Source: Prevotellaceae bacterium (GTDB taxonomy: Bacteria; Bacteroidota; Bacteroidia; Bacteroidales; UBA932). Taken from it: a stretch of 36,500 nt of DNA. The translations under genes and the position numbers were made by a program. Shown one piece after another: positions 6,066 through 25,150 of the stretch. The stretch's first letter is position 1. The number at the start of each line of letters is the position of its first letter. The notes under the pieces are model-generated. The model was not told the origin of the DNA. It saw only the letters and a list, made by a program, of their open reading frames with translations, and did not search any database. The stretch is taken from assembly GCA_031266935.1 (NCBI GenBank), contig JAISAC010000174.1:1-36500 (forward strand), written 5' to 3'.

Positions 6066-6152
6066 AAATTTGATTCTGAATTCTGAATTTTGAATTTTGA
6101 ATTCCTGACGGCGTAAGCCAATTCAAAATTCAAAATTCAGAATTCAAAATTT
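6066..6152. repeat. Palindromic AATTC-rich element, full copy with CCTGACGGCGTAAGCC core
   Basis: Arms of (TTTTGAATT)n / (AATTCAAAA)n around CCTGACGGCGTAAGCC; CCTGACGGCGTAAGCCAATTCAAAATT is also present at 9992-10018. Confidence 0.75.
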
Positions 6153-9173: not shown

Positions 9174-9965
9174 ATGTTATCGGCAATTGTATGGAATGTT
9201 GACCCTGAGCTTTTCTCCATTGGGCCGATTCATGTGCGCTACTACGGGGTGCTGTTTGCGCTGTCGTTTGTATGCAGCTACCTCATCTTTGTGCGCTTTT
9301 TCAAGCGCGATAAGCTGCCGCTACCGCTGCTCGATACGCTTACCATGTGGGCGGTAGTCTCCACCATTGTTGGCTTACGCCTTGGGCACTGCCTGTTTTA
9401 CGACCCGGGCTACTACCTCTCGCACCCGCTCGAAATCCTGAAAATTTGGGAAGGCGGCTTAGCAAGCCACGGCGCGGCTATTGGCGTTCCGCTGGGGCTA
9501 TACTTTTTTTGCCGCAAGTACAAGATGAACTACCTTTGGCTGCTCGACAGAATAGTAATTGTGGTAGCGCTCACCGGCTTTTTCATCCGCATGGGCAACC
9601 TGATGAACTCCGAGATATACGGCATCCAGACTTCGCTGCCGTGGGGCTTTATTTTTGAGCGCCGCCACGAGGTTGTGCCCAAGCATCCCACGCAAATATA
9701 CGAGGCGCTGGCTTACCTGCTGATATTTTGTATCCTCCTGTACGCTTACGCAAAAAAATCCAGCCTGCTCAACCGCAAAGGCTTCTTATTCGGAGCATTT
9801 CTTGTGCTGGTGTTCACCTTCCGCTTCTTTGTGGAGTTCATCAAAGAGCGCCAGGTTGACTTTGAGGAAGGTATGCCGCTTGATATGGGGCAGCTGCTTA
9901 GCATCCCCTTTGTGCTGCTGGGTATATCCATGCTGATATACAGCTGGAAGACGAAGAAATTTTGA
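9174..9965 (+). CDS. lgt: Prolipoprotein diacylglyceryl transferase
   Basis: IGPIHVRYYGVLFALSF, GLASHGAAIGVPLGLYFF, RMGNLMNSEIYG, HPTQIYEALAYL. Confidence 0.96.
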   Translation: MLSAIVWNVDPELFSIGPIHVRYYGVLFALSFVCSYLIFVRFFKRDKLPLPLLDTLTMWAVVSTIVGLRLGHCLFYDPGYYLSHPLEILKIWEGGLASHGAAIGVPLGLYFFCRKYKMNYLWLLDRIVIVVALTGFFIRMGNLMNSEIYGIQTSLPWGFIFERRHEVVPKHPTQIYEALAYLLIFCILLYAYAKKSSLLNRKGFLFGAFLVLVFTFRFFVEFIKERQVDFEEGMPLDMGQLLSIPFVLLGISMLIYSWKTKKF

Positions 9966-10035
9966 ATTCTGAATTTTGAATTTTGAATTATCCTGACGGC
10001 GTAAGCCAATTCAAAATTTATAATTCAAAATTCAT
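9957..10035. repeat. Palindromic AATTC-rich element, full copy with CCTGACGGCGTAAGCC core
   Basis: Same gene-proximal arm as at dxs (GAAATTTTGAATTCTGAATTTTGAATTTTGAATT) and identical 27-bp core plus right arm. Confidence 0.75.
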
Positions 10036-11304: not shown

Positions 11305-11336
11305 ATTCAAAATTCAAAATTCAAAATTCAAAATTG
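11305..11336. repeat. AATTC-rich repeat abutting the DUF4249 start
   Basis: attcaaaattcaaaattcaaaattcaaaattg; the last TTG is the only start codon at this N-terminus. Confidence 0.6.
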
Positions 11337-14552: not shown

Positions 14553-14604
14553 TGATTGTGATTAATTGCTAATTGTTAATTGTTAATTATTAATTGTTAA
14601 TTGT
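14553..14604. repeat. AT-rich short-period repeat (TTAATTGTTAATTG)
   Basis: gattaattgctaattgttaattgttaattattaattgttaattg between fucosidase and rlmB-like genes. Confidence 0.6.
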
Positions 14605-14606
14605 TT

Positions 14607-15362
14607 TCAGCTTCTTTGCCTGACCGCCTCAAACAGCGCTACCGCTGCCGCCGCGCTCACGTTGAGCGAGGCAATGCTGCCGCGCAGCGGAATACGCACC
14701 AGCTCATCTGCCGTGCGCAGGATGTCGGACGATATGCCTGCCTCCTCCGACCCCATTACGATGGCGGTTGGCCGGGCGAGGTTGAGCGCGTACAGGCTCT
14801 TGTCGGCTTTTTCGGTAGCAGCTACCACCTGCACTCCGCTGTTACGCAGGTAGGCTATTGCGCTGCGAAGGCTGGGTACGCGGCATACCGGCATTATGTT
14901 GAGCGCACCCGCCGACGTCTTGAGCGCGTCGCCGTTGATTTGCGCAGCGCCCTTGGCCGGAACTGCTATGGCATGCACCCCTGCGCACTCCGCCGAGCGC
15001 GCAATAGCGCCGAAATTGCGCACGTCGGTTACGCCGTCGAGCAGCAGCACCAGCGGCGCTTCCCCGCGCTCTACAACGCTTATTACCACCTCTTCAAAAT
15101 CTGCGTAGGCTATGAGCGAAGCAAACGCCACCACTCCCTGATGATTTTTTTGCGTAAGCGCGTTGAGCTTTTCAGCCGGTACGCGCTGCACCGGTACATG
15201 CCGCTCTTCGAGCAGCGCAACCAGCTGCTGCGCCAGCTCACCCTCCATGCCTCTTCTCAGCATTACCTTGTCTATTTCGCGGCCGTTTTGCAGGGCCTCC
15301 ATCACCGGACGTATGCCAAATAGCAGATTTTCGGGCGACACTTTTCGTTGCTTATAAATCAT
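14607..15362 (-). CDS. rlmB: TrmH-family RNA 2'-O-ribose methyltransferase (RlmB-like)
   Basis: LLFGIRPVMEAL, LLLDGVTDVRNFGAIARSAECAGVHAI, IVMGSEEAGIS, RIPLRGSIASLNVSAAAAVALFE. Confidence 0.93.
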   Translation of the reverse strand: MIYKQRKVSPENLLFGIRPVMEALQNGREIDKVMLRRGMEGELAQQLVALLEERHVPVQRVPAEKLNALTQKNHQGVVAFASLIAYADFEEVVISVVERGEAPLVLLLDGVTDVRNFGAIARSAECAGVHAIAVPAKGAAQINGDALKTSAGALNIMPVCRVPSLRSAIAYLRNSGVQVVAATEKADKSLYALNLARPTAIVMGSEEAGISSDILRTADELVRIPLRGSIASLNVSAAAAVALFEAVRQRS

Positions 15363-15567
15363 TCAATTTTTGGAAGTTATGTAAGAATAGAATTTTAATA
15401 AAATAGCATTTTGTTTTTATAAATAACTAATATTAAGCGATTTACGTTTTGTAAAAATCAAACGCAAAGTTCAAATGCTGTAATACAAAAATATAACAAA
15501 TCTTTCAGAGCAGCAAAAATATTTCATCACAAGAGGCGTAAACCATAAGATCAATAAAGAATTAATT

Positions 15568-15813
15568 CCAAATTCGGAAGTAAAAGGATGCCAAGTTCGG
15601 AAGTAAAATGATGCCAAATCGGGAAGTAAGAAGATGCCAAATCGGGAAGTAAAAGGCTGCCAAATCGGGAAGTAAAAGGCTGCCAAATCGGGAAGTGAAA
15701 GGCTGCCAAATCGGGAAGTAAAAGGTTGCCAAATCGGGAAGTAAAAGGCTGCCAAATCGGGAAGTAAAATATCGCCAAATCGGGAAGTAAAAAGTTGCCA
15801 AATTCGGAAGTTT
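15568..15813. repeat. 23-bp tandem array, 10 full units plus a partial 11th; consensus CCAAATCGGGAAGTAAAAGGCTG
   Basis: Units start every 23 bp at 15568, 15591, 15614, 15637, 15660, 15683, 15706, 15729, 15752, 15775, partial at 15798; no spacers. Confidence 0.97.
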
Positions 15814-15825
15814 TATGTATCTTTG
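15795..15825 (+). promoter_or_regulatory. Promoter of the DUF4143 ATPase gene, overlapping the end of the repeat array
   Basis: TTG (15795-15797)-N20-TATCTTTG (15818-15825), ATG at 15845. Confidence 0.65.
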
Positions 15826-15844
15826 CACTCAAAAATAGCTGTAT

Positions 15845-17113
15845 ATGAGCAAAAGTAACTATTTATCAAGGGTTTGTGATTTTGACCTTCAAAGTGCGCT
15901 TGACGCTATGGGAGCGGTGCTTATTGAAGGGGCAAAATGGTGCGGAAAAACAAGCACCGCCGCAAATGTTGCACGAAGTATCCTGCTTATGCAGGATACC
16001 GATAATGCGCGCTCTTACCAGGAGATGGCAGATACCAAGCCTTCGCTGCTGCTGAAAGGTGAAAATCCGCGCCTGATTGACGAATGGCAAATGTCGCCCA
16101 TTCTTTGGGATGCGGTGCGCTTTGAAGTGGATAACCGAGGCTTGGCAGGACAGTTTATTTTGACCGGTTCTGCCGTGCCTGCCGACAACGTAACGTCGCA
16201 CACGGGAACGGGTCGTTTTGCAAGGATTTTGATGCGCCCGATGAGCTTGTACGAATCGAAAGAATCAAACGGAACCGTTTCGCTTGCCGATTTGTTTGAC
16301 GGGAAGCACGAAATCGAAGGCAAATCCGATTTAAGCATAGAGCATATAGCGTTTGCGCTATGCAGAGGCGGTTTTCCTGCAACAATCAACAAGTCCGATG
16401 CAACGGCCTTGCGAATGGCTGTTGATTATGTTGAAGCAATTATCAATCAGGATATTTCGCGGGTTGATGGCGTAGAAAAAAATCCAACCCGCGTTAGGTT
16501 GCTTTTGCGCTCGCTGGCCCGAAATATCGCGACAATGACTTCTGCGCAAACGATACTGGGCGATGTAGAAAGCACCGAAACAAGCATTTCGGATAAAACG
16601 TTTGCAGTGTACTACAATGCTTTACGACGAATTTTTGTGGTAGAAGATATGCTTGCATGGTCGCCTTCGCTGCGCTCCAAAGCGGCGATACGCACCTCGC
16701 CGAAGCGCCATTTTGTTGACCCATCAATTGCTACGGCTGCTATGCGCATCAATCCGGCAGCAGTTTTGCAGGATTTTGAATATTTTGGCTTTCTGTTTGA
16801 AGCGCTGTGCGCGCGCGATGTTCGCGTTTACGCGCAGCGAAATGACGGAGATGTGTTTCACTACCACGACAAAAGCGGATTGGAGGCAGATATGATTGTG
16901 CAGCTGCGCAATGGCCGCTGGGGTGCAGTAGAAGTAAAGTTAGGAAACCGGCAAATCGAACAGGCAGCAGATAATCTGTTAAAATTGAAAGAGAAGATAA
17001 ACACAGACAAAATGCGAGACCCTTCGTTTTTGCTCATACTGACCGGTGGGCAATTTGCTTACCGTAGAAAAGACGGCGTTTTGGTTGTCCCGATTGGATG
17101 TTTGAAAAATTAA
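15845..17113 (+). CDS. ATP-binding protein, AAA + DUF4143
   Basis: VLIEGAKWCGKTSTA (Walker A), PRLIDEWQMSPILWDAVR, FILTGSAVP, C-terminal GLEADMIVQLRNGRWGAVEVKLG. Confidence 0.94.
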   Translation: MSKSNYLSRVCDFDLQSALDAMGAVLIEGAKWCGKTSTAANVARSILLMQDTDNARSYQEMADTKPSLLLKGENPRLIDEWQMSPILWDAVRFEVDNRGLAGQFILTGSAVPADNVTSHTGTGRFARILMRPMSLYESKESNGTVSLADLFDGKHEIEGKSDLSIEHIAFALCRGGFPATINKSDATALRMAVDYVEAIINQDISRVDGVEKNPTRVRLLLRSLARNIATMTSAQTILGDVESTETSISDKTFAVYYNALRRIFVVEDMLAWSPSLRSKAAIRTSPKRHFVDPSIATAAMRINPAAVLQDFEYFGFLFEALCARDVRVYAQRNDGDVFHYHDKSGLEADMIVQLRNGRWGAVEVKLGNRQIEQAADNLLKLKEKINTDKMRDPSFLLILTGGQFAYRRKDGVLVVPIGCLKN

Positions 17114-17150
17114 TTTTTGTTGAAGCCAAAAATACGGTTTAGCGACCAAT

Positions 17151-18023
17151 TTACTTGGCGTTAGGTTTCGGATGCTTCGTTTTATCCTCCTTAACGTCCC
17201 TGTACTCCAGGCCTTCGTTATAGACTTTCATGGCGCGGAAGCTCATACCCATGCTTGAGTATCCTCCGTCGTGAAAGAGGTTTTGCATGGTTACCTTGCG
17301 GGTGAGGTCGGAGAATAGCGTAATGACGTAGTTGGCGCAGTCTGTGCTGTCGGCGTTGCCGAGCGGCGACATGCGGTCGGCAAAGTCCACGAGGTTGTCG
17401 AAGCCCATAATGCCGCTGCCGGCAGTGGTTAGCGTGGGCGACTGCGAAATGGTGTTGATGCGGATTTTTTTTTCGCGCCCGTAGATGTAGCCAAAGCTGC
17501 GGGCAATGGATTCGAGCATGGCTTTGGCGTCGGCCATATCGTTGTAGCCGTACAGCGTACGCTGCGCTGCAATGTACGAGAGCGCTACCACCGACCCCCA
17601 ATCGCTGATGGCGTCGGCCTTGCGGCATACTTGCAGCATCTTGTGAAACGAAATGGCCGAAATATCCAGCGTTTGCTGGAGGTAGGCGTAGTCGAGGTCG
17701 TCGTACATTTTCCCCTTGCGCACGTTTGGCGACATGCCGATGGAGTGCAGCACAAAGTCAAGCTGCCCTCCGAGGTGCTCCATGCTCTTTTGCACCAGAT
17801 TTTCCAGGTCATCCACCTTGGTTGCGTCGGCAGGAATAACGACAGTGTTGAGCTTTTTTGCCAGCTCGTTGATAGTGCCAAGCCGCATGGAAACAGGCGT
17901 ATTGGTGAGCACAACCTGTGCCCCCTCCTCGCAGGCGCGCTCTGCCACCTTCCATGCAATAGATTTTTCGTTGAGCGCCCCAAAAATAAGCCCCTTTTTG
18001 CCTTTTAGTAAGCCGTATATCAT
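17151..18023 (-). CDS. fabI: Enoyl-[acyl-carrier-protein] reductase (FabI)
   Basis: GLIFGALNEKSIAWKVAERACEEGAQVVLT, LDFVLHSIGMSP, YNDMADAKAMLESIARSFGYIYG. Confidence 0.95.
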   Translation of the reverse strand: MIYGLLKGKKGLIFGALNEKSIAWKVAERACEEGAQVVLTNTPVSMRLGTINELAKKLNTVVIPADATKVDDLENLVQKSMEHLGGQLDFVLHSIGMSPNVRKGKMYDDLDYAYLQQTLDISAISFHKMLQVCRKADAISDWGSVVALSYIAAQRTLYGYNDMADAKAMLESIARSFGYIYGREKKIRINTISQSPTLTTAGSGIMGFDNLVDFADRMSPLGNADSTDCANYVITLFSDLTRKVTMQNLFHDGGYSSMGMSFRAMKVYNEGLEYRDVKEDKTKHPKPNAK

Positions 18024-24560: not shown

Positions 24561-25007
24561 ATGATAATTGACCAACTAAGCAGCGCGAAAAAATATTTTT
24601 CGCTAAACCGACACTTTGAGAAAGCGTTTGACTTCCTCATCAACAACGATTTGAGCAAGCTGGAGGAGGGCAAGTACGAGCTTGACGGCGCCAACGTTTA
24701 CGCTACCCTCATGGTGCGCCAGGGTATTGCGCCGGAGGCCGCTAAGCACGAAGCGCACGATTGCTACATTGACATACAGCTCTGCGTTAGCGGTAAGGAG
24801 ACCTTTGGCTGGAGCCACCGCTCCGACTGCGAAAGCATCAAGGAGGCGTACAACCCCGAAAAGGACATCGTCTTCTACGCCAATAAGCCCGATACCTACA
24901 TCGGAATTAAGCCGGGGCAATTCGCCATCTTCTTCCCCGAAGACGTGCATGCACCCCTAATCGGCAACGGCGAAATAAAAAAAATAGTGGTGAAGGTGAA
25001 ATGCTGA
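24561..25007 (+). CDS. YhcH/YjgK/YiaL-family protein
   Basis: LEEGKYELDGANVYATLM, EAHDCYIDIQLCVSGKETFGW, FAIFFPEDVHAPLIG, KIVVKVK. Confidence 0.9.
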   Translation: MIIDQLSSAKKYFSLNRHFEKAFDFLINNDLSKLEEGKYELDGANVYATLMVRQGIAPEAAKHEAHDCYIDIQLCVSGKETFGWSHRSDCESIKEAYNPEKDIVFYANKPDTYIGIKPGQFAIFFPEDVHAPLIGNGEIKKIVVKVKC

Positions 25008-25044
25008 ATTTTGAATTCTGAATTCTGAATTTTGAATTTTGAAT
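25004..25044. repeat. AATTC-rich repeat arm overlapping the YhcH-family stop codon; opposite-orientation arm at 25131-25146
   Basis: tgctgaattttgaattctgaattctgaattttgaattttgaat; inverted aaaattcaaaaattc at 25131-25146. Confidence 0.6.
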
Positions 25045-25150
25045 GAGGATGGCGGGCGCGGCAGGACGGGGGGGGGCGACGGGGAAACGCCATTTTTTAC
25101 CAACATTTTGTTCCGAACAGGAGGAGGATTAAAATTCAAAAATTCTCCCG

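Follow-up and report, generated by a model that had tools for sequence, protein, structure and literature searches.

What purpose might be served by a block of head-to-tail repeats directly in front of a solitary ATPase gene, and does it belong to that gene or to its host? The question is raised by the window (the whole 36,500-nt stretch of a Prevotellaceae bacterium contig that was analysed), in which a repeat of period 23 with 10.6 copies at 15568-15811 (score 339, Tandem Repeats Finder) is by far the top repeat. An earlier sequence-only reading had described ten 23-bp units and a partial eleventh upstream of the ATPase gene, and the repeat finding and the constant head-to-tail spacing of 23 nt in a repeat search of the window agree with this. 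The region that it had given for the array (15568-15845) holds only as far as 15811, the rest (15812-15844) being promoter and leader outside the array. The features of the locus are listed below.

14607-15362, minus strand: SpoU/rlmB-type rRNA methyltransferase (Pfam), divergent, with its own promoter at 15486-15519 (minus strand); not part of the array-ATPase unit
15532-17166, plus strand: array-plus-ATPase segment, approximate extent; missing next to both rlmB and fabI in the closest relative examined
15568-15811, plus strand: tandem array, consensus CCAAATCGGGAAGTAAAAGGCTG; ten 23-bp units (15568-15797) and a 14-bp eleventh (15798-15811)
15568-15613, plus strand: units 1 and 2, edge type CCAA(A/G)TTCGGAAGT, from the sequence; a form common to other genomes
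15614-15797, plus strand: units 3-10, core type CCAAATCGGGAAGT, from the sequence; probably an expansion
15798-15811, plus strand: unit 11, partial, edge type, from the sequence; within the -33/-7 spacer
15795-15825, plus strand: core promoter, Bacteroidota-type; TTG at 15795-15797, 20-bp spacer, TATCTTTG at 15818-15825
15845-17113, plus strand: AAA_14-DUF4143 ATPase, 422 aa, COG1373-type (Pfam, alignment, structure model, PADLOC PDC-S01)

The array and the ATPase gene in the window

The edges of the array differ from its core, as can be read directly from the sequence and as had been noticed before: units 1, 2 and 11 have the form CCAA(A/G)TTCGGAAG (containing TTCGG), and units 3-10 the form CCAAATCGGGAAG (containing TCGGG). 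Because the edge form is also that of relatives with only 3-5 units (L024, L039), the core is probably a later expansion, by duplication of the core variant, of a shorter ancestral array. In its own genome (2.85 Mb, 73% complete) CCAANTNSGGAAGT has 11 matches, all inside the window array; a chance or simple repeat is ruled out by the score, by this uniqueness and by the conservation across phyla described below. As regular direct repeats adjoining a defence-annotated gene the units resemble a CRISPR array, a class that the sequence-only reading had rejected, rightly, since they abut at exactly 23 bp without spacers. Many short 7-bp tandem arrays of the AATTCAA type also occur in the window (6073-6151, 9958-9989, 11305-11335, 14562-14605 and 25000-25045), with similar ones upstream of two DUF4143 genes of the same genome (L097, L098); these appear to be a distinct repeat that occurs genome-wide.

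The TTG at 15795-15797 forms the end of unit 10, the 20-bp spacer before TATCTTTG contains unit 11, and the ATPase begins with the ATG at 15845. These coordinates agree with the -33-like and -7 elements proposed earlier, and the placement of unit 11 in the spacer is repeated at L024, L035, L039, L040 and L042. The promoter of rlmB had been placed outside the array, and the closest relative examined (G339), which has no array at that place, conserves 98% of the stretch concerned (15482-15531). Homology to this relative stops at 15531 on the rlmB side (L214) and at 17166 on the fabI side (L204); the two flanks are on different contigs there, which is not a clean empty site, and none was obtained between rlmB and fabI, the two genes not being adjacent in the relatives examined. 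In the window the ATPase gene stands alone between these chromosomal genes (rlmB-type and SDR/fabI-type by Pfam), without a linked regulator, and is the only plausible gene in 15362-17151, the ORFs over the array being repeat-derived.

The protein has an AAA_14 P-loop domain followed by DUF4143, the arrangement of its family (PF13173, E = 4e-10; PF13635, E = 6e-31; both above the curated cut-off), with the motifs GAKWCGKT (Walker A) and LIDEW (Walker B). The PADLOC PDC-S01 profile PDLC04790 covers residues 5-420 of 422 (E = 8e-63), a full-length match, and the PD-(D/E)XK-like residues E319, D349 and E363-x-K365 are invariant in an alignment of 15 homologues. A winged helix is predicted at about residues 207-290 in a structure model whose N-terminal half (the AAA part) is poor and of low confidence. 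No solved homologue was found by sequence and no PDB match at E = 0.001 by fold search, which gave only sub-threshold matches (archaeal AAA ATPases, winged-helix regulators and Card1/Can2-type nucleases). The same genome contains 15 DUF4143 matches. One survey (PMC12988326) ranks PDC-S01 fourth in frequency among prokaryotic defences, counting 29,494 in Bacteria and 9,986 in Archaea, and notes that most such candidates still await experimental validation. In the open-access literature on DUF4143, COG1373 and PDC-S01 we found no description of arrays at these genes, and for PDC-S01 neither an experimental validation nor a mechanism.

Arrays across the protein family

A pattern search for the exact window unit gave no match in 294 other genomes of the order, because units differ by gene: a protein-based search of 60 genomes of the same family found arrays upstream of most relatives, with a different unit in each. 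We assembled 157 distinct full-length genes from the family, from the genome of the window and from ten others; for 155 of them the upstream sequence was long enough, and a tandem direct repeat was counted as significant when it scored above 99% of dinucleotide shuffles. Such a repeat was present upstream of 113 of the 155 genes (98 of 139 when loci found by their arrays are left out), counts which, the genes being related, are not independent events. Ordinary genes of the same loci had a repeat in 10 of 66 cases, none at period 23 or 32-33 (7 of 17 raw positives were excluded from this control, all of period 23 and all either neighbour-shared or orphan arrays or an ATPase gene), and downstream regions in 10 of 107.

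A significant period of exactly 23 bp was found in 38 of the 49 genes with the Walker motif GxKxCGK that had not been selected by their arrays (a lag other than 23 was best in 7 of 62 GxKxCGK genes), and the usual period of the GxRQxGK branch is 32-33 bp. Several GARQVGKT-type genes of the window's own genome likewise have 32-33-bp arrays, e.g., nine exact TATACCCTAATTYTGTGCA units (L101, G000:C48:4928-5210); the period thus varies with the family branch. Homologue arrays comprise about 2 to 13 units, most of them only 2-4, and two orthologues that are 97% identical, from two species of the window's genus, have an equal array span of 13 positions; the earlier suggestion of tuning by copy number is weakly favoured by the range of unit numbers and disfavoured by the shared span.

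Period 23 was also found in named records, namely Bacteroides ovatus and B. uniformis plasmids, two Collinsella plasmids, Prosthecochloris, Lentilactobacillus and Sulfitobacter, and period 22 at a Rhizobium acidisoli homologue; the named plasmid records independently support the breadth of the association. Among them are the homologue on the B. ovatus plasmid (WP_032845912.1), whose array has 3 units, and that on B. uniformis pBUN1 (WP_141982211.1). No significant array was detected at the distant, plasmid-borne homologues of Thermus, Aliarcobacter, Azotobacter and Agrobacterium (A. tumefaciens). Scanning viral contigs with the window protein alone gave no relative; by tblastn, relatives of the ATPase were found on gut contigs deposited as bacteriophage, and the three that were examined (MT835683, MT838873 and MT839327; L230, L231 and L232) have 23-bp arrays of their own. 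Of 42 genes that lack a direct array, 13 carry a long palindrome close to their start instead, which is operator-like too. Such palindromes are frequent at DUF4143 genes without direct arrays, near-perfect and immediately 5' of the start codon (L196, L114, L135, L123, L235 and L238).

In Bacteroidota nearly all the arrays sit on the core promoter. Of 48 genes with period 23 there, 38 have a TAnnTTTG box no more than 130 bp from the start codon, compared with 6% of shuffles. The gap between the array end and the box that follows is 1-52 bp in 35 of these 38 (14 bp or less in 18); in one the array reaches 1 bp into the box, and in two it lies just after it. At L065 and L086 the array comes after the -7 box and ahead of the start codon, and would thus be transcribed.

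We also scanned 84,980 genomes blindly for two units at 23-bp spacing, which returned 19 loci in records of Bacteroidota, Bacilli, Treponema, Propionibacteriaceae and Ignavibacteriales, nearly all of them MAGs. A full-length relative of the ATPase is directly downstream of the array in 13 of the 19, and a remnant in one more (L032); at a further one (L022) the gene has evidently been lost. The link to DUF4143 genes is thus much broader than the sequence-only reading had supposed, and homologous arrays scattered without such a link, for which it had proposed to look, are not what the scan brought up (14 of 19 linked). Four orphan arrays adjoin other genes with no detectable ATPase nearby (L026:1203-1262, L028:1562-1736, L031:3496-3532 and L033:5693-5752); possible explanations are targets acting in trans or remnants. 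The array of L031 keeps a 20-bp spacing to a TATTTTTG box before an unrelated gene, and elsewhere in the genome of L028 there is an ATPase whose unit is similar (L134). In a Propionibacteriaceae MAG (L034:2708-2759) both orientations of the unit occur in the array beside one ATPase, while another ATPase, at a distance of about 3 kb, is accompanied by a 23-bp array of a different unit.

Units are one-sided, being found upstream in 64 of 64 genes, downstream in 2 of 64 (1 of 64 in shuffles) and within the gene in none of 64, which rules out terminal repeats of a mobile cassette. The same asymmetry bears on the idea that the array is a mobility or recombination site of the array-ATPase cassette. 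The patchy distribution, the absence of the cassette beside rlmB in the nearest relative and the relatives on plasmids and gut phage contigs would agree with such a site, as would L022, which shares flanks of 85-87% identity with L036 and has lost the ATPase gene while keeping two units, with the breakpoint at the array end. However, a plain deletion fits that junction, no partner recombinase is seen beside the window gene, and the units stand on one side only; we regard this explanation as very improbable.

Unit, protein and host

The unit follows the protein and not the host. Unit similarity tracks protein identity (Mantel r = 0.60; the maximum of 999 permutations was 0.23), and a unit core close to CCAAAT-C-GGAAGTAAAA recurs in MAGs of Bacilli, Treponema, Ignavibacteriales and Propionibacteriaceae with proteins of 50-78% identity. 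Pairs from different phyla with at least 50% protein identity (n = 146) have a mean unit similarity of 4.33, a comparison that rests partly on binning, since many loci come from MAGs and carry organism labels derived from it. In 53 pairs of paralogues from the same genome the mean is 2.57 against a null of 2.32, hardly above chance. The unit-protein correlation alone could come from joint inheritance; the real argument is the contrast between cross-phylum pairs and same-genome paralogues, and recognition of the unit by the product of the adjacent gene would fit it.

A separate host transcription factor that binds the array and controls the ATPase gene is formally possible, and a small helix-turn-helix gene lies directly upstream in the Collinsella plasmids. 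It is disfavoured because units are shared by homologues of different phyla and differ among paralogues of one genome, the reverse of what such a factor would predict; moreover, the window gene has no linked regulator, and we judge such a factor to be quite improbable. Three different units of the genome to which the window belongs have all their matches inside their respective arrays (11 of 11, 10 of 10 and 9 of 9); a dispersed regulon is rejected, as none of these units occurs outside its array. That the array might be a neutral tandem duplication, functionless and kept by chance, is scarcely credible: unequal exchange would produce just such a homogenised core with divergent edges, but the period is conserved, the position at the promoter is constant, and the core is conserved across phyla at only about 50% protein identity.

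When unit matching was mapped onto the protein, one of the strongest signals (raw r 0.56-0.57, partial 0.19-0.23) came from the predicted recognition helix at residues 241-266, with a second peak near the nuclease site; the effect is small and carries no significance test. The first peak weakly supports recognition of the unit by the modelled winged helix.

A probable self-specific operator and its analogues

Position at the promoter, one-sided units, confinement to a single array and the palindromes together make up the anatomy of a self-specific operator. A multi-site operator or a cognate site of the ATPase, both proposed in the sequence-only reading, are favoured jointly by the promoter position and the co-inheritance of unit and protein. 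We consider it likely that the array is a gene-specific, iteron-like operator to which the downstream ATPase binds, and through which it would repress its own gene and no other. The ATPase would bind its own 23-bp unit cooperatively along the array. With its last unit inside or next to the -33/-7 spacer, a filled array would block RNA polymerase and so hold expression of the ATPase low. Autorepression is the most likely sign of this control, since the bound array would cover the polymerase site. Cross-regulation among paralogues of the same genome would not be expected, because the unit varies from gene to gene within the family. Release of the array, for example with the protein engaged elsewhere or titrated by incoming DNA, would turn the gene on. 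A Thermus gene with AAA_14, DUF4143 and HTH motifs was up 6.6-fold in an Argonaute-positive strain with a plasmid present (PMC4406477). Inducible control would agree with this, but no array was seen at the homologue examined on the plasmid of Thermus HB27. The array-ATPase system may also be linked to antiviral defence.

Alternatively, the array might be an assembly or loading platform, a place on self DNA at which the ATPase-nuclease is stored, counted or held inactive, effects on transcription being secondary and loss or copying of the array during infection being the trigger of defence. A multi-copy array in place of a single operator would suit such a platform, as would an AAA ATPase that could oligomerise and the intact PD-(D/E)XK-like residues of a PADLOC PDC-S01 protein. 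Nearly all Bacteroidota arrays, however, are on the core promoter, which an operator needs and a platform does not, and most have only 2-4 units; we therefore think a platform unlikely. Extended to the whole family, the operator reading becomes more tentative: PDC-S01 may consist of mutually orthogonal, self-recognising units, in which each protein and its private array diversify together at a period of 23 or 32-33 set by the branch, and the array may be both a brake and a self-sensor that arms the nuclease on invasion.

The private DNA sequence beside each gene is a testable substrate for binding, footprinting, structural and regulatory work, and the protein-unit pairs are a naturally occurring collection of matched protein-DNA specificities that might yield a recognition code. 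For PDC-S01, a very common but untested candidate for antiviral defence, the array together with the intact nuclease-like residues hints at what the ATPase may sense.

Plasmid iterons and type II toxin-antitoxin operators are the closest working analogues of the array, and membership in either class fails on the features tested. Iterons are direct repeats of about 17-22 bp that often overlap the promoter of the gene for their binding protein, and their specificity differs between incompatibility groups. The window array likewise consists of direct repeats at the promoter of the presumed binder's gene, but the locus is chromosomal, there is neither a Rep initiator nor an origin, and the gene encodes an AAA_14-DUF4143 ATPase that has a nuclease-like domain. 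Type II toxin-antitoxin systems have a self-specific operator at their own promoter and many paralogues that are kept from cross-talk. A self-specific operator, as proposed here, and many paralogues are common to both, whereas here there is a single gene with no adjoining antitoxin gene (the ATPase being the sole plausible gene in 15362-17151, a two-gene operon is rejected) and arrays reach 13 units. BldC of Streptomyces is reported to bind cooperatively along direct repeats of DNA and so to regulate transcription (PMC5859096); it is a MerR-like regulator, neither an ATPase nor a member of a family with the gene-specific self-recognition proposed here.
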